Source: an uncultured Lachnospiraceae bacterium
GTDB taxonomy: Bacteria; Bacillota; Clostridia; Lachnospirales; Lachnospiraceae
Assembly (NCBI GenBank): GCA_946623875.1
Contig: CAMORO010000007.1
Location: 1-55,233, forward strand
Direction: 5' to 3'
DNA: 55,233 nt
The notes below the pieces were generated by a model. The model saw nothing but the letters and a program-made list of their open reading frames with translations. It did not search any database and had not been told where the DNA came from. Both the position numbers and the translations under genes were made by a program. Shown here piece by piece: positions 5,218 through 15,755 of the stretch (position 1 is the first letter of the stretch; every line of letters begins with the position of its first letter).

Positions 5218-5625
5218 TCACTGCCTTGCCAGAAACTCAGCAGCAGTAAATGCCATGACCTCGCTTTTCTTATAGTCCTTCACATTTCTTGTAATGATAT
5301 AATCAGCATGTATCCTCTTGGCTGTAGCCGCCTGTATGGCATCCTCAAAGTCATCCCACTGCATTTCGGCAGCCATGCTTATGTCTGATGCGTGCAGATC
5401 CTCGAATGTGAAGATCAATGAGAGTTTTTTCAGAACCTCATTTATCTTTTCAGCATCCAGTTCCTTTCGCATGACATAAACCAGATTGGCAAATGTCAGA
5501 GTTGAAACGTAACCTTCCACCAAATCCGTCTCACACATCTTCCATACCATAGCTGAATTCTCATAATGAGGCTCTCTTTTCTGAAGGACATCGAGAATGA
5601 TATTTCCGTCAATCAACAACTTCAT
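5218..5625 (-). CDS. PIN-domain toxin (PF13470-like)
   Basis: About 135 residues forming one PIN ribonuclease domain. It has the N-terminal acidic strand LLIDGNIILDVL, the LTFANLVYVMRK helix typical of the PIN_3 branch (ANxxYxxRK instead of a VapC-type Glu), the DFEDAIQAATA acidic helix, and the C-terminal ADYIITRNVKDY strand. Such proteins cleave RNA through a cluster of acidic residues binding Mg or Mn. The gene overlaps the antitoxin gene by 17 bases, the usual order for these modules. Regulation is probably by the antitoxin at the palindromes upstream. The target RNA cannot be told from sequence. Confidence 0.85.
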   Translation of the reverse strand: MKLLIDGNIILDVLQKREPHYENSAMVWKMCETDLVEGYVSTLTFANLVYVMRKELDAEKINEVLKKLSLIFTFEDLHASDISMAAEMQWDDFEDAIQAATAKRIHADYIITRNVKDYKKSEVMAFTAAEFLARQ

Positions 5626-5857
5626 ATTTCTCCCTCAGCCTTTCTTCCTTTGTCTGATCTATGTCCTTATCTCCCTTGAGGATCCCTGTAAGAGAATCCG
5701 TCAGATAAGATACCGCTGCGTCCCGTGGTATGAACCGTCCCACTTCCTTACCGTTTCTTGTGACTATAACCTCGCTGCCACCCTGTACCAGGGCGAGATA
5801 CCTGCCAAAGTTATTCTGCATCTCTGTCGCTGTAGCTGTCGCTGTATTTCCTATCAT
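5609..5857 (-). CDS. Phd/YefM-family antitoxin
   Basis: About 82 residues. The N-terminal half fits the Phd/YefM DNA-binding fold: a short strand, the helix EMQNNFGRYLALVQGGSEVIV, then TRNGKEVGRFIP. The C-terminal half is charged and probably disordered until it wraps the toxin. It should neutralise the PIN toxin and, with it, repress its own promoter. The ATG at 5857 lies 17 bases downstream of a TTAGCTAA palindrome, which fits autoregulation. The gene overlaps the toxin gene by 17 bases. Confidence 0.85.
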   Translation of the reverse strand: MIGNTATATATEMQNNFGRYLALVQGGSEVIVTRNGKEVGRFIPRDAAVSYLTDSLTGILKGDKDIDQTKEERLREKYEVVD

Positions 5858-5873
5858 AATATCACCCCGCTTT

Positions 5874-5910
5874 CATATTAGCTAATTTTATTATATATCA
5901 TATTAGCTAA
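5874..5910 (-). promoter_or_regulatory. antitoxin operator: two TTAGCTAA palindromes
   Basis: The 12-mer CATATTAGCTAA occurs at 5874-5885 and again at 5899-5910, start to start 25 bp, each with the palindrome TTAGCTAA. On the minus strand they overlap two possible promoters of the antitoxin gene: TTGCAA (5912-5917) with TATAAT (5890-5895), spacing 16; and a -10-like TATGAT (5897-5902) in register with the LytTR-type site upstream. This is what a self-repressing toxin-antitoxin operator looks like. Confidence 0.7.
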
Positions 5911-5935
5911 ATTGCAAGTTTTCCTCTTCAGATGT

Positions 5936-5965
5936 CTATTCGGTTGTTTTCAATGTTTATTCGGT
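5936..5965 (-). promoter_or_regulatory. LytTR-type site 1 (toward toxin-antitoxin)
   Basis: On the minus strand ACCGAATAA and ACCGAATAG are separated by exactly 12 bp. Ten bp further lies AGGAAA (5920-5925) and, after 17 bp, TATGAT (5897-5902). The same geometry is seen at the other four sites. It faces the antitoxin gene. Confidence 0.65.
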
Positions 5966-5996
5966 TGTTATCTCGTCTCCTGTTTCACCCCTCTTC

Positions 5997-6026
5997 ACCG
6001 AATAAGCACGAAAAACGACCGAATAG
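5997..6026 (+). promoter_or_regulatory. LytTR-type site 2 (toward the double-receiver regulator)
   Basis: On the plus strand ACCGAATAA and ACCGAATAG are separated by exactly 12 bp. It faces away from site 1, so the two sites form a divergent pair. The -35 position of the regulator promoter starts 10 bp after the second repeat. Confidence 0.75.
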
Positions 6027-6036
6027 ACAAAAACTC

Positions 6037-6065
6037 TGATTTCCTCAAATCCCATGATGTATAAT
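6037..6065 (+). promoter_or_regulatory. promoter of the double-receiver regulator
   Basis: A perfect -10 box TATAAT (6060-6065) follows a poor -35 TGATTT (6037-6042) at 17 bp. A weak -35 next to an upstream activator site is typical of an activator-dependent promoter. Confidence 0.6.
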
Positions 6066-6107
6066 AACTTGATATGCTTTATAACCGCAGACAGATTCGG
6101 AGGATTT

Positions 6108-6917
6108 ATGCAGCTTAAGGTAATGGTCACCGGAAAAAACACAAAGATAGCATCAGACATAAGCGAACGGCTGACAGATGATCGCGGATACATAGTCATT
6201 AAATGTCCCGCAAGCAAAGAGGCACTGTTTGACCGTGTTCCTGCTGAAATGCCGCATGTGATCATTGTATGTCTCGGAAACGAAACATGGGAAACAGTAA
6301 CGGTATATGACGTTCTCAAGGAATGTACAAGGATGGGTGGAATAACCATCATCGTTATCGCAAATGAAGAGGATCAGAAGGTCTTTATCAATAATACAAA
6401 GCTTGAGCGCATGTTCTTCATGCCACGCCCTGTCTCACTCTTCGCACTCTATCAGAAGTTAAATGACATCGAAAAGAACGTGGAAGACAAGCTGCAGAAC
6501 GGCTCTATGATGATCACGGAATATGTCAATCCCAATGCCGATGACACACCGCCCCGCAAGCACATTCTCGTAGTGGATGATGATTCCTCACAGCTTATGC
6601 AGATGAAGGATCACTTAAGGGAATTCTATGAGGTAACTCTCGTGCCTTCAGGTAAGGCTGCTCTTAAATATCTGTCGAAACACCGTGTCGACCTCATCTT
6701 TCTTGATTATCTGATGCCTCAGATGAACGGGCCCGATGTACTTGAGCAGCTTCGCAGATTCCCTGCGCTAAAGTTCATACCCGTTGTATTCCTCACAGGA
6801 GTCACCGAGAAGGATACCGTGATCAAAACGCTGCTCGAGCTCAAACCCCAGGGATATATAGTAAAGCCCGCAAAGAAGTCGGAGCTGGTAGCCAAGATCA
6901 TCGATATTCTCGGCTAA
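6108..6917 (+). CDS. response regulator: degenerate receiver plus receiver
   Basis: About 269 residues. Residues 1-125 look like a receiver fold without the phospho-acceptor (HVIIVCLGNE where an Asp would be expected). Residues about 145-269 form a full receiver: acidic pocket VVDDD, acceptor Asp near residue 199 in IFLDYLMPQMNG, Thr in FLTGV and Lys in VKPAKK. There is no output domain, so it probably acts by protein contact or as a relay step. I chose the ATG at 6108 because CGGAGG lies six bases upstream; the ATG at 6054 lies upstream of the -10 box. It carries LytTR-type site 2 in its promoter and is followed by the Hpt gene. Confidence 0.8.
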   Translation: MQLKVMVTGKNTKIASDISERLTDDRGYIVIKCPASKEALFDRVPAEMPHVIIVCLGNETWETVTVYDVLKECTRMGGITIIVIANEEDQKVFINNTKLERMFFMPRPVSLFALYQKLNDIEKNVEDKLQNGSMMITEYVNPNADDTPPRKHILVVDDDSSQLMQMKDHLREFYEVTLVPSGKAALKYLSKHRVDLIFLDYLMPQMNGPDVLEQLRRFPALKFIPVVFLTGVTEKDTVIKTLLELKPQGYIVKPAKKSELVAKIIDILG

Positions 6918-6948
6918 CAGCCGGAAACTCATTAAATTATCTATGAAA

Positions 6949-7063
6949 TATAATACGAGTAACTGTTCATAACAGGCTCAAAAATAGTGTAAAGCAAAGT
7001 ATGAAAGCAGAGAACCGTCATAAGGAATCCGTAGCCTTATGACAAAAGTGCGAAAGGACAAAA
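6949..7063 (+). promoter_or_regulatory. structured leader of the Hpt gene
   Basis: TATAAT at 6949-6954 could be a -10 box. Just downstream is the small hairpin CTGTTCATAACAG (6964-6976), which begins an 18-base stretch (6966-6983) shared, with one mismatch, with the AIM24 leader at 15811-15828. A perfect nine-pair hairpin follows: GTCATAAGG (7017-7025) with CCTTATGAC (7035-7043), loop of nine. GAAAGGA then serves as ribosome site. It matches no riboswitch consensus that I know. Confidence 0.45.
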
Positions 7064-7663
7064 ATGGAAAAAGACATATTCAAACTGGAAGAATGCGGCA
7101 TTAATGTAAATCTTGGCATAGAATATACCGGCAGCCGCGAGAAATACATCCGTGCGATACAGCACTATTTTGAAGCATATGACACCAACAGGACTCGCGT
7201 AACACAGGCTCTTAATGCGATGGATCTGGAAAATTATGTGATAACCGTGCATTCATTAAAGAGCAACTCCAGGATGATAGGTGCCACTGAACTCAGCAGC
7301 GGATTTGAAGTACTGGAAATGGCCGGACGTGACGGGGATATTGCAACAGTGAAAGCCGAAACCCCTACCATTCTTGATTACTATGATATTCTAATAGAAA
7401 ATCTTAAAAGGTTCTGCGATTATTCGGACGACCCTGCCGCCGAGGAAATATCGGCAGATGAAGCACGTGCGATAAAAGATGAACTTCTTGAAGCTCTTGA
7501 TGAATATGATGACGAATTGTCTGCCAGGCTGGTTGCGAAGCTGTTTGGCTATCCGTTTGATGATAAATATCGTACCAAACTAAGAAACGCCAAAGCACTT
7601 ATAGGCGACTTCATGTATGATGAAGCCGCAGATATCATACGGGAGATAGCAGCGGCTATATAA
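7064..7663 (+). CDS. Hpt-domain phosphotransfer protein
   Basis: About 199 residues. Residues about 10-110 form an Hpt four-helix bundle with the phospho-accepting His near residue 62 in VHSLKSNSRMIGA. A second, acidic helical part (about 115-199) has no recognised motif. Hpt proteins carry phosphate between the receiver of a hybrid kinase and a separate response regulator. Here the hybrid kinases in the window (8.9-11.3 kb in particular) and the double receiver just upstream are the natural partners; this is inference. The gap to the upstream gene is 146 bases and contains a possible promoter of its own. Confidence 0.85.
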   Translation: MEKDIFKLEECGINVNLGIEYTGSREKYIRAIQHYFEAYDTNRTRVTQALNAMDLENYVITVHSLKSNSRMIGATELSSGFEVLEMAGRDGDIATVKAETPTILDYYDILIENLKRFCDYSDDPAAEEISADEARAIKDELLEALDEYDDELSARLVAKLFGYPFDDKYRTKLRNAKALIGDFMYDEAADIIREIAAAI

Positions 7664-7695
7664 ACCGATCTTAAATAAAATGTATTTACGGGAGC

Positions 7696-8175
7696 TCATT
7701 CAGGAGATCTGCTGATCTTCTTCAGCATATCCCTGACATGCTTCATGCGGCTCCTGCTCACCCATGACTTGATACCGCAGTCAAATTCAACCCCTATTGT
7801 CCCGGAAGCATTGATGTCAAAACTTTTAACCTTGTACAGGTTGATTATCTCCGACTGGGATATCCTCAGGAAACGGCCGGGGTTGAGTGTTTCCTCCATT
7901 CCCGTCAATGAATGCTTGACTGTATACAGACCTTCCGCTGTCTGAAGATAAAGCCTGCGCCCCTCGATATATACCCTTAATATATCACGCTGGGAAATGA
8001 ACACCATCTTATCATACTCGTTAGCGACAATCTGAGGAAAGTCATTATCAGATGCATTCTCGATCGCATATATGATATTCTCGACCTGCTGAGTATTGGC
8101 ACGTGTTTTGATCGTAACCTTGGGGTCTATATATTTTTCATTTATGACTACCTCTATTTCGACCATGCTTTTCAT
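7696..8175 (-). CDS. LytTR-family DNA-binding regulator
   Basis: About 159 residues without a receiver domain. Residues about 50-155 form a LytTR domain: FISQRDILRVYIEGRRLYLQ, then TGMEETLNPGRFLRISQSEI, the conserved INLYKVKSF and a basic end. LytTR domains bind pairs of 9-bp direct repeats spaced 12-13 bp, and repeats of just this kind lie upstream of this gene and four others. I prefer the ATG at 8175 (GGGGACGG nine bases upstream) over a GTG at 8196. It probably activates its own promoter. LytTR proteins without a receiver are often controlled by a membrane protein encoded beside them, here the DUF3021 protein. Confidence 0.9.
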   Translation of the reverse strand: MKSMVEIEVVINEKYIDPKVTIKTRANTQQVENIIYAIENASDNDFPQIVANEYDKMVFISQRDILRVYIEGRRLYLQTAEGLYTVKHSLTGMEETLNPGRFLRISQSEIINLYKVKSFDINASGTIGVEFDCGIKSWVSRSRMKHVRDMLKKISRSPE

Positions 8176-8244
8176 AAAGCTACCGTCCCCGGGCACCGAT
8201 TATTCCAATGCCTTTTCATAAAAATGAACACAAAAATAATAGTT

Positions 8245-8273
8245 ATTATACTATAATGCAGGTTTTAATCCAA
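8245..8273 (-). promoter_or_regulatory. promoter of the LytTR gene
   Basis: On the minus strand TTGGAT (8268-8273) and TATAAT (8245-8250) are separated by 17 bp. The -35 box starts 10 bp after the near repeat of LytTR-type site 3, which suggests autoregulation. Confidence 0.7.
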
Positions 8274-8283
8274 TGACCTATGT

Positions 8284-8313
8284 CTATTCGGTTGTTTTTC
8301 GTGTTTATTCGGT
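8284..8313 (-). promoter_or_regulatory. LytTR-type site 3 (autoregulatory)
   Basis: On the minus strand ACCGAATAA and ACCGAATAG are separated by exactly 12 bp. The spacer ACACGAAAAACA differs from that of site 2 at only two positions. It sits directly upstream of the LytTR gene promoter, inside the gap between that gene and the DUF3021 gene. Confidence 0.8.
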
Positions 8314-8410
8314 AAATGATCAGTCCGGGGTTCGATGATCACAGTATCATAAACAGGAGGTTCTGAATGAAATATATTAAGAGATATGTATCTTACACGT
8401 TTTATCAGTG

Positions 8411-8833
8411 TCATTTTCTGCGAAGCATTTCCAGCTCCTTATTTATCTCACGTATCTGCCTCTTATACGTTGAATACTGGATAAGCCAGATAATAATATA
8501 TGCCACCGTCATACAGACAAATGTGATGATCAGCACTACCCCGGTTCCGAACCAGCCCAGTACATAGTTAGCCACAAGAAATGAACTCATCGTCAAAAGA
8601 TAATGCGATGATGTCGCTCTGACGATCCCCCAGCTCTCAATCTCATAAAAGACACTGCTGCCCATTGCAATGCCGCCGTATATCATTGAACCGACTATCT
8701 GCCTGAGCATTGCAAGACCGTGAGAATCGATATATTGCGGTCCTTCAGCGCACAGAACGATCACTACCGGAATATAAACCCCGATAAGACATCCCGAAAG
8801 CAGCTTGATCAGAAAACTCTTCTTAATATCCAT
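8411..8833 (-). CDS. DUF3021-family membrane protein
   Basis: About 140 residues with four hydrophobic segments (about residues 8-28, 42-60, 72-92 and 98-120) and a charged cytoplasmic tail YKRQIREINKELEMLRRK. This fits DUF3021, a family commonly encoded beside LytTR regulators and thought to hold or inhibit them at the membrane. In most loci known to me the LytTR gene comes first; here DUF3021 is upstream of the LytTR gene on the same strand, with a 235-base gap that holds the autoregulatory promoter. GGAGA precedes the ATG. No promoter is certain for this gene. Confidence 0.75.
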   Translation of the reverse strand: MDIKKSFLIKLLSGCLIGVYIPVVIVLCAEGPQYIDSHGLAMLRQIVGSMIYGGIAMGSSVFYEIESWGIVRATSSHYLLTMSSFLVANYVLGWFGTGVVLIITFVCMTVAYIIIWLIQYSTYKRQIREINKELEMLRRK

Positions 8834-8943
8834 TACATAATCTCCGAAACCAGTATACTATACATACAATTATATAAAGTCTGGAGGGCTTTTTCCACTT
8901 CTCATCCTCTTTCCCTTATTATTTTTCCTACCCTCTTTGTCTT

Positions 8944-11343
8944 TTATGACCGGTTTTCGCCATCAGACGTTTCATGAATAATATACTTCACTTCATGCTT
9001 TGAAAGATACTTCTGCGCCTTTTCTTCATCCTTAACAAATACACCCTTATATTTATCTCCGAGAAGTACCTTGATCTCATTGAGCTTTTCTGTAGATTCA
9101 CTCACAACCAGAACCACCGGACGTTCCTTGGCAGCTTCTTCTGTTTCCTTCAGAAGACTCTTGTCAATATACTTTATAAGGGCTTCCTCAAGGTCCCTGT
9201 ACATGATTGGCTTGCTAAGGTAATCCGTGAAGCCTTCCTCTATATATATGTCCCTCGCTCCCACAATTGCATCCGCCGTAAGAGCTATCACCGGAGTATC
9301 ATCCGCAAGATGACGCTTTCGTATCTCCTCAAGCGTCTGTGTTCCGGACATTACAGGCATCATCTGATCAAGAAGCACCACATCATACTTATCCTCCGAA
9401 AGACAGGTCAGGCATTCCGCTCCGGACAATGCCGTGGTTATCTGTATCTTGGTGTCAGACAGCAGATTGGAAATGACCTCCAGATTCATTGCGTTATCAT
9501 CAACTATAAGTATCTTCGCACCCGGAGCCACAAGAGCCGGTCTGTACTCCTCCTTTGCTTCCTGTGCTCTTTCAAGATTAAGAACAAAATCACCCACCGG
9601 TGTATCATCTTCGACCTCCTGAACCATTTCTGCGGTAAAGGTGGTTCCTTCGCCGTACTTGGAGCTTACCGAGATACTTCCGTCCATCATCTTGACGAGC
9701 CGCATGGTAATGTTAAGACCAAGACCGGTGCCTTCGATATTTCTGTTCTTGTCCTCCTCCAGTCTCTGGAATGCATTGAACAGCTTGCCCAGATCCTCAT
9801 TTTTGATGCCGATACCGGTATCGGCAACCACGAAACGCAGCCTGCTCTCTTCCCTGTCAAAGGAAACATCAATGCTCACACTGCCTTCCTTCGTATACTT
9901 TATAGCATTGTTGATAAGATTAAGCATTATCTGCCTTATCCTTATTTCATCACCCCTCAGCACGGACGGTATATCCTCAGCAACCTTAAGGTTATACTGA
10001 AGTCCCTTCTCATATGCCTTGTTACGGGTCATATTAACAACATCGTTCATCACCGACGAGAAACCGTAGCTGACAGGAATAAGTTCCATCTTGCCCGACT
10101 CTATCTTGCTGAGATCAAGGATATCATTGATTATGGAAAGGAGTGTCCTGCCCGCGCTCTGAATATCAAGAGCATATTTCCTTATATTATCATCGCCCGA
10201 AGACCTCAGTATCATTTCATCCATACCAACGATCGCATTCATCGGGGTTCTTATCTCATGGGACATATTGGCGAGGAAATCACTCTTCGCCTTATTTGAA
10301 GCATCCGCGGTATCCTTCTCAAGCTCCAGAACCTTTCTTTCATACGATGCCTTCTGCTCCTCAAGCTTCATCTCCTCCATGCGTTTTGTATAATTCTGTT
10401 CATTCTTATGGCCGGTATAATAGAAAACGGTTATCATGATAAAGATCAGAGTACAGATTATTATGTTAACCGCCAACTGACTTTTCACTTCTTCATACAG
10501 CTCGTGATCACCGACCACCATTACCACATACCAGTCGTTCATTATCCCGTTAACAAACACTGTGCTCTTCTCACCATCGCACATATATGAGAAGCTGCCC
10601 GACCCGGTTGCTTTAATGGCATTCAGGTATTCCACGCCTCCCTGCATATCGCTTATATTCGTTCCCTTCAGGGACTCATTGCCGTGTGCTATGAACAGTC
10701 CCGTGCTGTCAACAACAAAGCCGTAACCCTTACCGTTAATGACAAGTTCGGGCATCATCGACTGGATTCCCTTAAGCTGTACATCCAGTGATATTACATT
10801 CTGCCTGTCCGGAAGCATCCTGCTGACCGATACGATCATATTTCCTGTCTGAGCATCTATATACGGAGGTACGAACACAACCTCACTGTCATTCTGCCTG
10901 GCTATCGTATACCAGTCGCGGTTCTTCGGATCATACCCTTCCGGAGGCTCCCAGTTAAGCCCGTCCATATATCTGCTCATAATAAATCCGTATAACCCGC
11001 TGTAATTCTCATCGAACTGCTCTGCCACATTGTTAGTCTCCTCCACGAGAAATTCGTGAATCCTGGCCGGTGTGGATCCGCTTATCAGCATATGGTGTAC
11101 CGAGTCAGCCGTAACGTGAAGCACATTTTCCGCAGTATTCAGATGGTTCTCGATCATGGAGGATATATTCAATATCCTGTCCTCTATAACAGCATTGGAA
11201 TTAGACACCGCAACAGAGTAGATCAGCCTCGATGTGTAGACAACCATGACTACCATAAATACAAACAGCAGTATTAACGGTATCAGCATGCTGTGTTTTC
11301 TGTGAACATATTCATTGTGATTTCTTTCGTCCGTCGAAATCAT
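8944..11343 (-). CDS. hybrid sensor histidine kinase with dCache-like sensor
   Basis: About 799 residues. A first membrane helix lies at residues 17-40 and an extracellular region at about 40-290 fits a dCache sensor (LNWEPPEGYDPKNRDWY, then DAQTGNMIVSVSRML). A second helix is at about 290-310. The HisKA phospho-His is near residue 361 (MSHEIRTPMNAIVGM). The ATPase domain has intact N, G1 (DTGIGI) and G2 (GTGLGL) boxes. A receiver follows with its Asp near 658 (VLLDQMMPVMSG), and a short, degenerate receiver-like tail ends the protein. It follows the DUF3798 lipoprotein gene by 11 bases, so the two likely form one sensory unit, with phosphate leaving through the Hpt protein at 7.1 kb. AAGAGG precedes the ATG. 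Confidence 0.9.
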   Translation of the reverse strand: MISTDERNHNEYVHRKHSMLIPLILLFVFMVVMVVYTSRLIYSVAVSNSNAVIEDRILNISSMIENHLNTAENVLHVTADSVHHMLISGSTPARIHEFLVEETNNVAEQFDENYSGLYGFIMSRYMDGLNWEPPEGYDPKNRDWYTIARQNDSEVVFVPPYIDAQTGNMIVSVSRMLPDRQNVISLDVQLKGIQSMMPELVINGKGYGFVVDSTGLFIAHGNESLKGTNISDMQGGVEYLNAIKATGSGSFSYMCDGEKSTVFVNGIMNDWYVVMVVGDHELYEEVKSQLAVNIIICTLIFIMITVFYYTGHKNEQNYTKRMEEMKLEEQKASYERKVLELEKDTADASNKAKSDFLANMSHEIRTPMNAIVGMDEMILRSSGDDNIRKYALDIQSAGRTLLSIINDILDLSKIESGKMELIPVSYGFSSVMNDVVNMTRNKAYEKGLQYNLKVAEDIPSVLRGDEIRIRQIMLNLINNAIKYTKEGSVSIDVSFDREESRLRFVVADTGIGIKNEDLGKLFNAFQRLEEDKNRNIEGTGLGLNITMRLVKMMDGSISVSSKYGEGTTFTAEMVQEVEDDTPVGDFVLNLERAQEAKEEYRPALVAPGAKILIVDDNAMNLEVISNLLSDTKIQITTALSGAECLTCLSEDKYDVVLLDQMMPVMSGTQTLEEIRKRHLADDTPVIALTADAIVGARDIYIEEGFTDYLSKPIMYRDLEEALIKYIDKSLLKETEEAAKERPVVLVVSESTEKLNEIKVLLGDKYKGVFVKDEEKAQKYLSKHEVKYIIHETSDGENRS

Positions 11344-11354
11344 TTAATCCTCTT

Positions 11355-12704
11355 TTAGTGTAAAATCTGTTCCGGAACTTCTATCTTGGTAGCACCCATA
11401 TAATATCCCGGAGCACCGAATATGTAGGTATCCTGATATATAAGGATGGTTTTATCGGATTTCTCACCTGACTCCTCATAAGTATAGCCGGATCCGTTCC
11501 ATTCCGCTCCGGGTGAGAACACTCCGTATGCTTTGGTAAGATCATTGATATCCGTAAGAGAACTCTCTCCCACGATCACATTCCTTGCATGCTCGGCCAG
11601 TCCTGCGGAAACTGTATATCCATATGAGTAAGTCCATGTCCCAAACCTGCCGGCACCGCCCTTCTTCACCACTGCATCCTCAACCTTCTTAAGGATCCTG
11701 TCAAAATCTCCCGCTTCCCCTGTAAGATCCAGGTCAAGCGCTCCGGGATAACCCATCATCGGAGAAGGCAGATCTGCTTCGATAAAATAACCGCCATATT
11801 CAAGAAGCTGCCTTATAAGCGGTTCGGTATGAGCATCATTGGTGCAGAAATACACCGATTTCTGCCCGTATTTTTCCACCCATTCCGGAACCTTTTCCAT
11901 AATGTAAGCCTGTGCTCCCGGAACTCCTACATCGGTAGTTGGATCCGGTGCTTCCACCATCTCAAATTTCATACCGAACTCTTCACACGCCGCTTTCATA
12001 ATGTTGACTTCTCTGTATACAGATTCATATGCCAGATGGCGCGGAAACGATATATGCACAAACGTATCACAACCAAGCTCATGCGCCGACCGTATGATAA
12101 GATATCCCCGGCTAAGGAAATCATAATTGACAACAAGATCTGCCGTCTCCTCAATGTCGGCGAAATCCTCATATGCTTCACCTGCTATACAGAGGATGTC
12201 CGGCCGTTTTTCATGGATCTGCCGAAACGCCTCTGTCGTTCCGTCCACCGCCTGATTAACAATAACAGCTTTCATATCCGGATCATCTGCCAGGTTAACA
12301 ATGGTCTGTATTGTTGTATCGAGTTCCTCCGTGAAGTTATCCGGATAAATTGCCAGTGTTACAACATCCGCTCCATACTTTTTCTGGAATGCTTCAGCTC
12401 CCCGTCTGTCATCCTCCGACTGAGCGAATGAGCCCGTGACTATACCAATGTGGAATGAATCTTCTTTCCCGGCTGTGTTCTCCTGACTGTCAGTATCCTT
12501 CGGGCCTCCCTTTCCGGCATCGGATGCTTCACTTTTGCTTTCTTTCGAACCCTCTCCCGCTCCTTCTTCTGTTCCTTCTTCAACCGCAGCATTATCTGTA
12601 CTGTACACACTTCCTGCGGCAGGCACCTTATCAGCCCCGCCACAGGCTGACATAACCGCAGCCATTACACAGGCCAATAAAGCACTCACCAGTCTCTTAC
12701 TCAT
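11355..12704 (-). CDS. DUF3798-family substrate-binding lipoprotein
   Basis: About 449 residues. The signal peptide ends in lipobox MSAC (Cys near residue 21), followed by a low-complexity acidic linker to about residue 85. The remaining part has the two-lobe fold of periplasmic sugar-binding proteins: FHIGIVTGSFAQSEDDRRGAE, AVIVNQAVDGTTEAF and SVYFCTNDAHTEPLIRQLLEYGG. Family DUF3798 (PF12683) fits best. No permease or ATPase gene is nearby. The gene lies directly ahead of the hybrid kinase, so I infer it presents a ligand to that kinase rather than feeding a transporter. LytTR-type site 4 lies upstream. Confidence 0.8.
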   Translation of the reverse strand: MSKRLVSALLACVMAAVMSACGGADKVPAAGSVYSTDNAAVEEGTEEGAGEGSKESKSEASDAGKGGPKDTDSQENTAGKEDSFHIGIVTGSFAQSEDDRRGAEAFQKKYGADVVTLAIYPDNFTEELDTTIQTIVNLADDPDMKAVIVNQAVDGTTEAFRQIHEKRPDILCIAGEAYEDFADIEETADLVVNYDFLSRGYLIIRSAHELGCDTFVHISFPRHLAYESVYREVNIMKAACEEFGMKFEMVEAPDPTTDVGVPGAQAYIMEKVPEWVEKYGQKSVYFCTNDAHTEPLIRQLLEYGGYFIEADLPSPMMGYPGALDLDLTGEAGDFDRILKKVEDAVVKKGGAGRFGTWTYSYGYTVSAGLAEHARNVIVGESSLTDINDLTKAYGVFSPGAEWNGSGYTYEESGEKSDKTILIYQDTYIFGAPGYYMGATKIEVPEQILH

Positions 12705-12787
12705 ATTCTTTCTCCATACTTCTTCTGATATGCATATGCTCCCGCTTATATTTTACAGATTTATAAATGTCTTCATATGATTTTTGT

Positions 12788-12817
12788 CTATTCCGTCGTT
12801 TTCCGTGTCTATTCGGT
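12788..12817 (-). promoter_or_regulatory. LytTR-type site 4 (toward DUF3798-kinase operon)
   Basis: On the minus strand ACCGAATAG and ACGGAATAG are separated by exactly 12 bp. A further degenerate copy may lie one 21-bp step upstream. The -35 position expected from the other sites reads TATGAA (12772-12777), and TGTAAAATA gives an extended -10-like box (12749-12754) at 17 bp. It is the most divergent of the five sites. Confidence 0.6.
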
Positions 12818-12860
12818 CGCTTTACGTGTTCATCAGGAAAAATGATTATTTCTTTTTCAC

Positions 12861-12890
12861 TTGTCACTGAGTTACATATCATGTTAAAAT
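12861..12890 (+). promoter_or_regulatory. promoter of citrate synthase gene
   Basis: TTGTCA (12861-12866) and TAAAAT (12885-12890) are separated by 18 bp, with TGT in front of the -10 box giving an extended -10. The transcript would carry a leader of about 130 bases before the gene. Confidence 0.55.
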
Positions 12891-12981
12891 GGATAATGTT
12901 GATATGTAAACCAAGAATATTACAGGCAGATATTAACTTAGAGTACCCACATGACATAAGATAATTGCAAGACATATATAA

Positions 12982-12994
12982 CTGTTCTGAACAG
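12982..12994. repeat. CTGTTCTGAACAG palindrome in the citrate synthase leader
   Basis: A 13-base palindrome CTGTT-CTG-AACAG lying 12 bases before the GGGAGGGGG ribosome site. Related sequences occur at 15809-15820, 15930-15941, 15949-15958 and 35481-35492, always in 5' leaders. Confidence 0.45.
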
Positions 12995-13029
12995 CGAATT
13001 GTCATATGGGAGGGGGAAAGGTACGACGA

Positions 13030-14400
13030 ATGATCAAGAACGAATACTACGAGGTTACACCTGAGATCATAGAGCTTGCTTCCATGGCTGAAAAAAGCAA
13101 CATGATCGATCCTGAACTTTATACCAAATACGAGGTAAAACGGGGGCTGCGTGACCTTAACGGCAAGGGTGTGCTTGCCGGCCTTACCAACATTTCCGAT
13201 GTCAGGGCCAACAAAATAGTAGACGGGCAGCAGATTCCCATTGCAGGCGAACTGTTCTACCGCGGATACAATGTACGTGATCTTGTACGCGGTTTTACCA
13301 GTGAGGAACGCTTCGGTTTCGAGGAGGTAACTTATCTTCTTCTGTTCGGAAAGCTTCCTGATCCTGACGAGCTTGATAAGTTCTGCAAGCTTCTTGCGGA
13401 ATACAGGACACTGCCGACAAGCTTCGTAAGAGATATCATCATGAAAGCTCCGAGCCGCGATATGATGAATACATTGGCAAGAAGTGTACTCACGCTGTAT
13501 TCATACGATGACCACGCCAATGATATCACACCACCCAACGTATTAAGACAGTGCTTACAGCTTATCAGCCTGTTTCCTCTTTTGTCAGTGTACGGATATC
13601 AGGCATACAGGCACTACCATGATGGTAAGAGCCTCTATATACATTCGCCGAAGGAGAAGCTGTCAACTGCCGAGAACATATTAAGGATACTGCGTGCCAA
13701 CAAAACATACACACCTCTTGAAGCAAGGATACTTGATGTGGCTCTTGTGCTTCATATGGAGCATGGCGGCGGTAATAACTCTACTTTTACGACTCATGTT
13801 GTAAGTTCATCGGGAACCGACACCTATTCGGTAATAGCTGCAGCGATCGGTTCACTAAAGGGTCCAAGGCACGGCGGTGCCAACCTCAAGGTCGTCGATA
13901 TGTTTGAAGATATGAAGCAGGTCGTAAAGGACTGGTCGGACGAGGATGAAATATCCGATTACTTAAAGAAGCTCCTCCACAAGGAAGCTTTCGATAAACA
14001 GGGACTGATATACGGTATGGGACATGCCGTGTACTCGCTCTCCGATCCGCGTGAACAGATATTCAGAAGCTATGTAGGTAAGCTGGCCGCCGAAAAGGGA
14101 CTGGAAAAGGAATTCGATCTTTATTCCCGCGTTGCAAAGCTCGGACCTCAGATCATAGCGGATGAACGCAAGATATATAAAGGAGTCTGCTGTAATGTGG
14201 ACTTCTACTCCGGTCTTGTTTATGACATGCTCGGTCTTCCCAAGGAACTCTATACGCCGATATTTGCAATAGCAAGGATAGTCGGCTGGAGCGCCCACAG
14301 GCTCGAAGAGCTTAACAACAACGGCAAGATAATCCGACCGGCATACAAGCCTGTCTGCGAAGATAAAGAATACATCCCGATCAACAGTCGTAAGGGATGA
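13030..14400 (+). CDS. gltA: citrate synthase
   Basis: About 456 residues. It condenses acetyl-CoA with oxaloacetate to citrate. Family features are present: GELFYRGYNVRDLV, the long helical body, LHMEHGGGNNSTFTTHVV with an active-site His, GPRHGGANLKV with the second His, and GMGHAVYSLSDPR. The length fits the longer clostridial form (about 450 residues). I chose the ATG at 13030; the ATG at 13006 is inside the ribosome site GGGAGGGGG. It stands alone between its own promoter and a strong terminator. In an anaerobe of this kind it would feed 2-oxoglutarate and glutamate synthesis rather than a full cycle. Confidence 0.93.
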   Translation: MIKNEYYEVTPEIIELASMAEKSNMIDPELYTKYEVKRGLRDLNGKGVLAGLTNISDVRANKIVDGQQIPIAGELFYRGYNVRDLVRGFTSEERFGFEEVTYLLLFGKLPDPDELDKFCKLLAEYRTLPTSFVRDIIMKAPSRDMMNTLARSVLTLYSYDDHANDITPPNVLRQCLQLISLFPLLSVYGYQAYRHYHDGKSLYIHSPKEKLSTAENILRILRANKTYTPLEARILDVALVLHMEHGGGNNSTFTTHVVSSSGTDTYSVIAAAIGSLKGPRHGGANLKVVDMFEDMKQVVKDWSDEDEISDYLKKLLHKEAFDKQGLIYGMGHAVYSLSDPREQIFRSYVGKLAAEKGLEKEFDLYSRVAKLGPQIIADERKIYKGVCCNVDFYSGLVYDMLGLPKELYTPIFAIARIVGWSAHRLEELNNNGKIIRPAYKPVCEDKEYIPINSRKG

Positions 14401-14407
14401 GATTTTA

Positions 14408-14437
14408 CCCCGCTGCATGAAGCGGGGTTTTATTTTT
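14408..14437 (+). terminator. terminator after citrate synthase
   Basis: CCCCGCT pairs with AGCGGGG across GCATGA and is followed by TTTTATTTTT. It begins eight bases after the stop codon. Confidence 0.9.
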
Positions 14438-14536
14438 CCGTTCACAGTTTATGATTGAATATTATATCATAATGTATTAAAATTATAATGATAGCGTTAC
14501 ATCTTTTGTGATATGTGATTGTATAGGGAGGTTTTT

Positions 14537-14902
14537 ATGGCTGATATCAAATTGCTCATTTGTGATGACTCCATTTTAGCCCGAAAGAGCATGACAGGTA
14601 TGCTTAATTCATTCGGTTATGAGGATGTTATCGAAGTATCAAACGGTGAGGATGCCGTCAATAAATACAAAGAGGAACATCCTGATATTGTTTTTCTTGA
14701 TATAGTAATGCCTGTCAAAGATGGCATTACGGCCACAAAGGAGATCATTGAGTTCGACCCCGGCGCAACCATAATAGTTGTCTCATCTGTCGGTACTCAG
14801 ACCCATCTGCGCGAAGTCATCAAGGCAGGGGCAAAAGACTTTATACAGAAACCTGTTGACGCACAGCTTCTTAAGCAGGTTCTCGAACATAACATTAAAT
14901 AG
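14537..14902 (+). CDS. CheY-like single-receiver response regulator
   Basis: About 121 residues: one receiver domain and nothing else. The acidic pocket is CDDS, the phospho-acceptor Asp lies near residue 55 (IVFLDIVMPVKDG), Ser in VVSSVG and Lys in IQKPVD complete the active site. GGGAGG lies before the ATG at 14537. Upstream TTGAAT and TAAAAT at 17 bp could be its promoter. It is followed after ten bases by the CheX-like gene, so the pair probably makes a phospho-switch and its phosphatase. No chemotaxis kinase or flagellar gene is in the window. Confidence 0.9.
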   Translation: MADIKLLICDDSILARKSMTGMLNSFGYEDVIEVSNGEDAVNKYKEEHPDIVFLDIVMPVKDGITATKEIIEFDPGATIIVVSSVGTQTHLREVIKAGAKDFIQKPVDAQLLKQVLEHNIK

Positions 14903-14912
14903 GAGGACGGAT

Positions 14913-15443
14913 ATGGCAAATGATGAATTGGCTGTAAGTATACTTAGCAATTCCAATTACAATGATATTAAGCCTTCTCTCACTGCTTTTGTCCAAACCT
15001 ATATAGAGAAGCTTATTGAAGATATTTCACTGTATGTTGATTCCTCCATTATAATTGACAGTATCGAAACGGTAGACAACTACAGGATCAAATATGAACT
15101 GTCTCAGGATATCACCGGAATTCCTTCGGCATACAGTGCGATAGACGGTACCCCGGATATCCTTGTGAAATTTGCGGAACAGTATGCGAAGCTCGGCATT
15201 GACAGCTTCGATGATCTGTGCAAGGAGGCGATCCTTGACTTCCTCAATCTTCACAACGGACTGTTCATCGTAATGCTCAGCAAGTTAAATCTGTGCGAAC
15301 TGAGTCTTAATGCGCCTAAGCAGACCGAGGATGTCGACTTAACAACCCGGGTTGACGGTAAGATAACCATAATATCCGTCAAGTTCTCATTCGGAATCGT
15401 TAAGTTCCTGCTCTACGAACTCCCCGGAGGAGCTACACTCTAA
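14913..15443 (+). CDS. CheX/CheC-like phosphatase-domain protein
   Basis: About 176 residues starting MANDELAVSI, with AGGAGG ahead of the ATG. The length and alternating alpha/beta pattern fit a CheX-like fold. The segment LDFLNLHNGLF resembles the E-x-x-N-x-x-x-G signature of CheC/CheX/FliY phosphatases, with Asp in place of Glu. Such proteins remove phosphate from CheY-like receivers. The close pairing with a single-receiver gene supports the call. The Asp-for-Glu change makes activity uncertain; it might only bind the receiver. Confidence 0.6.
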   Translation: MANDELAVSILSNSNYNDIKPSLTAFVQTYIEKLIEDISLYVDSSIIIDSIETVDNYRIKYELSQDITGIPSAYSAIDGTPDILVKFAEQYAKLGIDSFDDLCKEAILDFLNLHNGLFIVMLSKLNLCELSLNAPKQTEDVDLTTRVDGKITIISVKFSFGIVKFLLYELPGGATL

Positions 15444-15446
15444 AGA

Positions 15447-15487
15447 AGAAGTGAAACAGGGTATCATCCCCTGTTTCACTTCTTTTC
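15447..15487. terminator. bidirectional terminator
   Basis: A perfect 15-pair stem: AGAAGTGAAACAGGG (15447-15461) with its complement at 15469-15483, loop TATCATC, then TTTTC. It lies between the convergent CheX-like gene and the small membrane-protein gene. The last codons of the latter lie inside it. Confidence 0.9.
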
Positions 15488-15649
15488 ATCCATGTCACCC
15501 TTGCCCAATGCCTTTATAATAAGCATTCCGAGCGGCACACCAAAAAATATGATCCAACTGTGTGCAAAAGTGCCCTCTATCCATCCCCAAATGAAAAATA
15601 TGATTACTGCTGCTATACAGATGATCGGATACAATTTCTTTTTGTCCAT
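15476..15649 (-). CDS. small membrane protein (57 aa)
   Basis: About 57 residues starting MDKKKLYPII. Two hydrophobic segments (about residues 6-25 and 30-47) and a charged tail GKGDMDEKK suggest a two-helix membrane protein. I chose the ATG at 15649 because AAAGGAG lies in front of it; an ATG seven codons upstream is less likely. The gene has LytTR-type site 5 and a good -35 box upstream, so it appears to belong to the same regulon as the LytTR gene. Function unknown. Confidence 0.7.
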   Translation of the reverse strand: MDKKKLYPIICIAAVIIFFIWGWIEGTFAHSWIIFFGVPLGMLIIKALGKGDMDEKK

Positions 15650-15685
15650 TTTTTCTCCTTTCTCGCTCATCTCTTTTGTAAAATG

Positions 15686-15715
15686 ACTTTATCACCCAGA
15701 GTAAGCACTTTTCAA
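15686..15715 (-). promoter_or_regulatory. promoter of the small membrane protein gene
   Basis: On the minus strand TTGAAA (15710-15715) is followed by an extended -10, TGA-TAAAGT (-10 at 15686-15691), spacing 18. The -35 box starts 10 bp after LytTR-type site 5. Confidence 0.6.
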
Positions 15716-15725
15716 TACTTTCTGT

Positions 15726-15755
15726 CTATTCGGTAGATTTTAGCGTTTATTCGGT
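15726..15755 (-). promoter_or_regulatory. LytTR-type site 5
   Basis: On the minus strand ACCGAATAA and ACCGAATAG are separated by exactly 12 bp (spacer ACGCTAAAATCT). The near repeat continues GACA as in sites 1 to 4. It faces the small membrane-protein gene. Confidence 0.75.

Follow-up and report, generated by a model that had tools for sequence, protein, structure and literature searches.

Genes and probable operators of the locus

The window is a 55,233-nucleotide stretch of DNA from an uncultured Lachnospiraceae bacterium (contig CAMORO010000007.1 of assembly GCA_946623875.1). It encodes a LytTR transcription regulator, a DUF3021 membrane protein and the proteins of a phosphorelay, and carries five copies of an intergenic repeat site. 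By their sequences, the regulator, the membrane protein and the sites probably make up a variant form of the LytTR Regulatory System (LRS). The assembly spans 2.82 Mb in 155 contigs and is 83% complete; the nearest relatives of the bacterium are rumen dwellers.

The regulator is encoded on the reverse strand at 7696..8175, with a likely start at ATG 8175 (the listed open reading frame, ORF, begins at GTG 8196). Its 166 residues match only PF04397. A search of this protein for Response_reg found none, unlike the receiver-LytTR fusions of the AgrA/ComE type, and the receiver proteins of the locus that were tested gave no LytTR match. The LytTR model matches the structures 3d6w, ComE and AgrA, while a sequence-profile search of solved structures with the LytTR protein gave one weak match (3d6w), with AgrA absent. 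The preliminary description of this DNA had recognized the LytTR regulator and overlooked the adjacent gene at 8411..8833 (reverse strand), whose product matches PF11457 (DUF3021, E 3e-24) and is the presumed LytTR inhibitor. The locus is assigned to the LRS class because a receiver-less LytTR regulator adjoins a DUF3021 membrane-protein gene; Zou et al. 2018 (PMC6193735) describe an LRS as a LytTR protein with an inhibitor in the membrane, which in many cases is a DUF3021 or DUF2154 protein.

The DUF3021 gene is the third of a reverse-strand series, after the genes for a DUF3798 protein (11355..12704, with a lipoprotein-like N-terminal signal by eye) and a hybrid histidine kinase with a Cache sensor domain and a receiver (8944..11343). 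On the forward strand lie the genes for a pseudo-receiver plus receiver protein without a recognized output domain (dREC, 6108..6917, ATG 6108 after GGAGG) and an Hpt phosphotransfer protein (7064..7663). Pfam Response_reg matches the C-terminal half of dREC only, and an alignment inspected by eye shows that the acidic residues of a receiver are absent from the N-terminal half and kept in the C-terminal half. A membrane protein of 64 aa is encoded farther away, at 15476..15670 on the reverse strand.

The five sites lie where the preliminary description had placed them, all intergenic, each with two copies of ACCGAATAR exactly 21 bp apart. Site 1 (5933..5965, reverse strand), two 12-bp repeats, faces a Phd/PIN toxin-antitoxin (TA) pair at the point where synteny with the nearest relative, genome G005, breaks. 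Site 2 (5997..6029, forward strand) precedes the promoter TGATTT-17-TATAAT (6037-6065) of the dREC and Hpt genes. Site 3 (8281..8313, reverse strand) precedes TTGGAT-17-TATAAT (8273-8245), the promoter of the LytTR gene itself, a position pointing to autoregulation. Site 4 (12785..12817, reverse strand), followed by TATGAA-16-TAAAAT (12777-12750), heads the DUF3798-kinase-DUF3021 series; its near copy, ACGGAATAG, is the sole variant among the five, with one mismatch. Site 5 (15723..15755, reverse strand), followed by TTGAAA (15715-15710) and a weak −10, lies upstream of the small membrane protein gene and is conserved in the nearest relative (G005:C10). When pairs of ACCGAATA with at most one mismatch per copy were scanned for at spacings of 9-39, the window contained them at spacing 21 alone and at these five sites alone.

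The genome-wide scan proposed in the preliminary description returned eight places in 2.82 Mb at up to three mismatches. The five window sites have 0-1 mismatch, and a sixth copy, perfect and previously missed, lies at positions 177-209 of contig C85, ahead of a gene for a secreted repeat-rich protein; the remaining two matches are poor, with three mismatches each. The reversed pattern gave no match in this genome at up to three mismatches. A sequence model built on 60 genus sites recovered the same six at E<=3.3e-6, with the next match at noise level (E=0.17).

Comparisons drew on 37 genomes of the same genus, a family sample of 397 genomes, in which matches had to pass strict filters, and 80 named relatives, which are Lachnospiraceae and a few other Clostridia, largely metagenome-assembled genomes (MAGs) from the rumen. 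Whole genomes were scanned by pattern or by model, and a weight matrix was applied to fetched loci. The genus loci gave 81 weight-matrix rows scoring at least 27, representing 80 distinct places with one counted twice; a shuffled control, on one strand, gave no matrix match even at scores above 8.

These sites refine the anatomy of the repeat. The preliminary description had read each site as 9-bp repeats across a 12-bp gap; the spacing stands, and the unit is better read as 12 bp, ACCGAATARRCA, in a 12+9+12 rather than a 9+12+9 arrangement. The period is 21, and the 9-bp linker between the two copies is A-rich. The longer unit follows from the conservation of far-copy positions 10-12, which the seed did not constrain. 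In a set of 44 distinct sites from the genus, selected with the seed pattern only (up to two mismatches, these positions left free), 40 have A at position 10, 43 have C at position 11 and 37 have A at position 12; position 11 is again C in 58/58 distinct rows of the model alignment, rows that were partly matrix-picked. At three loci (L233, L251 and L266), site matches overlap 21 bp apart, forming three repeats in a row upstream of a LytTR or double-receiver gene.

The promoter geometry is likewise regular. A −35 position 10 bp past the near 9-mer had been claimed for every site, and a hexamer is present there at all five (AGGAAA, TGATTT, TTGGAT, TATGAA and TTGAAA for sites 1-5), with a TTG start in sites 3 and 5 alone. 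Such mostly poor hexamers are expected for an activated promoter. By eye, sites 1-3 have −10 boxes (TATGAT, TATAAT and TATAAT) at 17 bp and site 4 has TAAAAT at 16 bp, while that of site 5 is poor. The fixed distance of the −10 is a stronger regularity than the −35: the best −10 lies at offset 29 or 30 past the 33-mer in 68/81 genus rows. In 48 further sites outside that set, it falls at 29-30 in 33 and at 29-31 in 41, against 15% of random positions at 29-30.

The predicted regulon in relatives and the toxin-antitoxin pair

Comparison with relatives supports most of the regulon first proposed, namely the LytTR gene itself, the double-receiver gene, the DUF3798-kinase operon and the small membrane protein gene, and the position of the sixth site supports adding the secreted repeat-rich protein on C85 as a predicted member. 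The first gene behind a genus site was chosen mechanically as the longest ORF starting within 420 bp, and 79 of the 80 sites had one. It encodes LytTR at 23 sites, dREC at 11, a small double-glycine peptide at 10, a STAS protein at 4, DUF3798 at 3 and DUF3021 alone at 3, with about a dozen large secretion-signal proteins also present. The labels "double-glycine" and "secreted" were assigned by eye; NCBIfam offered no name for any of three small peptides scanned. In a crude transcription-unit test, a site lies within reach of the unit head for 11/13 dREC and 20/25 LytTR genes, compared with 17/279 other ORFs. The same test gave 3/11 for DUF3021, 2/7 for DUF3798 and 0/9 for the histidine kinase, whose heads are largely internal genes after non-query genes.

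The gene block occurs in two forms. In 12 compact genus genomes, a site is followed by LytTR, DUF3021, dREC and Hpt genes in a row. In 10 split genomes, the window's included, a separate site stands before the dREC-Hpt unit in 10/10 and before the LytTR unit in 8/10, the exceptions being G008 (a short contig) and G025. G007, G013 and G028 fall outside both groups; of these, only G007 has a separate site for dREC. Split blocks whose pieces carry their own sites present a case of regulon rewiring. The pieces also stay together across genomes: of the 37 genus genomes, 24 have dREC along with a close LytTR orthologue, 12 have neither and one is discordant (G013, dREC only). DUF3798 is more widespread, occurring in 27/37 genomes, including some without this LytTR. 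The DUF3798-kinase-DUF3021 order is seen again in G005, where it was joined from two contigs, and a site-DUF3021-DUF3798 order is found in G010, G022 and G025; these orders indicate that inhibitor and sensor genes are frequently kept together in split genomes.

Several neighboring genes deserve mention. In G007 and G028, a site heads genes for an HlyD-like protein (a partial family match below the cut-off) and NHLM ABC1 and ABC2 proteins. Relatives of the 64-aa membrane protein directly follow double-glycine peptide genes in G007 (L075:11426-12059 and L076:12249-12763, the latter copy apparently broken), which suggests an immunity-type role for this protein. At L084:1595-19084 (G009:C36), two giant ORFs of 3384 and 2444 aa, called mechanically, lie behind a site; the second resembles a nonribosomal peptide synthetase by eye and is followed by another site and a small double-glycine peptide gene. 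In some relatives, the LytTR unit is preceded by an extra kinase-like gene of opposite orientation (L072:1072-2565, L083:2597-5212, L085:659-2146 and L107:3720-5180). In G005, G009 and G031 it sits between the DUF3021 and LytTR genes, a position from which it is absent in the window.

The TA pair (5218-5857), which the preliminary description had listed as a possible regulon member, is probably not one. A TATGAT hexamer does lie at the expected distance from site 1, as a true member driven from that site would require. However, only a break in synteny specific to this genome brings the pair next to site 1: the window and G005 share their gene order from Hpt as far as site 1, collinearity ends at 5932, and the matching site in G005 faces a secreted protein gene. 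Site 1 and its flanks, 51 bp in all (window 5932-5982), are repeated with 100% identity at C85:160-210 (locus L070), where the copy is followed by a relative of that same secreted gene. This duplication with differing neighbors looks as it would after a rearrangement through the site, or after a large insertion with a long duplication. The pair stands beside site 1 in this genome only, so the site-gene arrangement is not conserved, and searches with its two proteins gave nothing at E<=1e-8 across 50 loci, of which 48 come from relatives and two from other contigs of this genome. Its promoter region contains, by eye, two TCATATTAGCTAA repeats (5873-5885 and 5898-5910), which are likely the pair's own operator, as in self-regulated pairs; the second extends into the −10 expected for site 1. 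Control of the TA pair from site 1 is therefore an unlikely arrangement.

The probable regulator of the sites

The reading that best accommodates these features, to which we assign a probability of roughly 85%, is that the sites are LRS operators served by the LytTR protein of the window. Comparison supports the partner, the operators, the promoter geometry and the regulon, while the mechanism would be that of the LRS of Streptococcus mutans. Joint distribution supports pairing the sites with the LytTR-only protein encoded at 7696-8175. The pattern (up to three mismatches) occurs in 27 of the 37 genus genomes and a LytTR match in 26, with at least 57% identity in 24 of these. Convincing sites, judged by matrix on fetched loci and by inspection, are present in 27 genomes, namely the 24 with a close LytTR along with G003, G013 and G023; the pattern match of G035 was set aside as poor, and the site of G016 was found by matrix alone. 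The other nine genus genomes have no pattern match at up to three mismatches. Among the named relatives, which contain 107 sites compared with two in a reversed control, a site lies at most 750 bp upstream of the LytTR gene in 34/38 cases at 60% identity or higher, 17/33 at 50-60% and 3/6 below 50%, with 3/80 untestable. In the family sample, model sites occur in 12 genomes and a full-length LytTR of at least 41% identity in 14, with both in seven. Close relatives are also found in XBB2008, AB2028 and AD3010, whose records carry no MAG label and are thus probably from cultured organisms.

The sequence of the repeat changes along with that of the regulator, with several loci giving no clear repeat. 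Upstream of LytTR genes of at least 57% identity, the repeats are mostly ACCGAATAR. At about 39-50% identity they grade from ACCGAATAG via ACCGATCAG and ACCGATTAG to ACCGCTTAT, and at 30-38% they read ACCACTTAT, ACCGACTAT and similar. The suggestion that the specificity may be new was overstated, as the motif is a variant of the ACCRCTTAY repeat reported for LRS (PMC6193735), with intermediates in relatives. The residue of the FhRhHRS motif matching AgrA N201 (numbering as given in PMC4227749) is Q106 in 31/31 GAATA-type proteins, N in 10/11 proteins of the other type and Q in the remaining one. Its placement relies on that motif alone, since the structure-profile search returned a weak 3d6w match and no AgrA. 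Residue 106 and the drift between GAATA and RCTTA suggest a specificity hypothesis open to testing, although the association of this residue with the repeat type is confounded by phylogeny.

Several observations weigh against the assignment. G003 (82% complete) and G023 (85% complete) have a good site and no detected LytTR orthologue; the preliminary description had named sites in genomes lacking the LytTR gene as evidence against its proposal, and they are thus found, weakly, in 2/37 genus genomes. G013 (98% complete) has a site and a LytTR relative of 36% identity at best. By matrix, 16/33 LytTR relatives of 50-60% identity have no site, and 5/25 genus LytTR heads have none within 400 bp; these five are L078 (whose contig extends only about 220 bp farther upstream), L100, two proteins at 35-46% identity and one of 40% identity encoded within an exporter operon. 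In the family sample, 5/12 genomes with a site have no close LytTR, and 7/14 with a LytTR have no model site. The inhibitor gene precedes the regulator gene in the window, whereas Zou et al. (PMC6193735) report that the regulator comes first in all LRS of the S. mutans type. That order does not form part of the minimal two-protein definition given there; it is found in 12 genus relatives, and both orders occur among the named genomes. Finally, a 110-bp gap separates the kinase and DUF3021 genes, and transcription of DUF3021 from site 4 is putative.

The sites of G003, G023 and the five family genomes could also signal that another regulator binds them, either a second LytTR protein encoded in this genome or a non-LytTR protein, with the LytTR gene of the window merely a target. 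This is very improbable. The second LytTR gene (C109:6539-6823), followed by the start of a membrane-protein-like ORF and the contig end, and possibly another LRS, has no such site on its contig (best matrix score −13.4, no model match). Moreover, the sites accompany the window-type LytTR across genomes, the motif changes together with the LytTR sequence, and LytTR relatives of only 30-38% identity have repeats of the published LRS type at the same place.

Proposed mechanism and comparison with known systems

By analogy with the S. mutans LRS, the DUF3021 protein would hold the LytTR regulator inactive until a signal relieves the hold. Two LytTR domains would then occupy both repeats from the same side of the helix, introduce a bend at the A-tract and aid RNA polymerase from just upstream of the poor −35, and action at the regulator's own promoter would create positive feedback. 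Since the DUF3021 gene follows the site-4 genes, activation there may increase the inhibitor and the sensor kinase as well and so act as a built-in brake. More speculatively, the co-regulated phosphorelay may supply or tune the input. In a specific form of this idea, which is possible and decidedly tentative, DUF3798 and the Cache hybrid kinase would sense a ligand, phosphate would pass via Hpt to the receiver half of dREC, and dREC would relieve or restore the hold of DUF3021 on LytTR. Such a phosphorelay-gated LRS would combine two signaling classes that have been treated as distinct, and would provide a defined input for an LRS. The opposite action, with LytTR occupying the site to block polymerase as the LytTR-only repressor BlpS does on a 30-bp operator in competition with BlpR in Streptococcus gallolyticus (PMC8545106), is most unlikely, as BlpS is described there without a membrane inhibitor and opposes a LytTR response regulator on a shared operator, while the receiver proteins tested here have no detected LytTR domain and the site upstream of poor −35 hexamers is an activator position.

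Judging from the literature titles, novelty lies in the GAATA core, in the connection with a phosphorelay and with NHLM export, and in the separate operators on the pieces of a split block. Among the LytTR literature matches listed, none has a title on operators of LRS, or on a phosphorelay linked to them, in Lachnospiraceae, the phosphorelay itself not having been a search term. Shared operators and joint presence or absence across genomes tie the LRS to a sensor relay, which provides concrete input candidates. This is of value in that LRS are widespread, yet Zou et al. (PMC6193735) name those of S. mutans as the only ones characterized and leave their signals largely open, with purines named for BrsRM.

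The likeness to known systems is nonetheless close. As in HdrRM, BrsRM, SMU_433/434 and other LRS of S. mutans, a receiver-less LytTR regulator is paired with a membrane partner, DUF3021 being one inhibitor type known in that species (PMC6193735). Published LRS repeats are 9 bp, mostly ACCRCTTAY-like, and usually lie 12 bp apart and 10 bp before the −35 of the system's own promoter (PMC6193735, Tables 2-3); site 3 follows this rule, with repeats 12 bp apart and 10 bp ahead of LytTR's own TTGGAT. Unlike those systems as reported, the core here is GAATA rather than RCTTA, the repeat is 12 bp long, several operators are scattered over the locus and the inhibitor gene follows DUF3798 and kinase genes. 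AgrA and ComE share the LytTR fold and direct-repeat operators, yet they have a receiver domain and a cognate kinase where a membrane partner is found here, and their repeat differs. BlpS is also LytTR-only and is encoded beside a two-component system and bacteriocin genes (PMC8545106), but it represses.

Export offers a further parallel. Two LRS types are described as linked to ABC transporters, and the peptide export in the regulon of some relatives recalls the control of bacteriocins by S. mutans LRS (PMC6193735). Exporter genes of the NHLM type (TIGR03794/03796/03797) stand behind sites in some relatives; in this genome the NHLM exporter homologues lie elsewhere, on C3 and C20, where no site was detected. 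A further departure lies in the association with a hybrid kinase, Hpt and dREC, given that Zou et al. set LRS apart from two-component systems (PMC6193735). The kind of switch is already known; its pairing with a whole phosphate-signaling relay is new.

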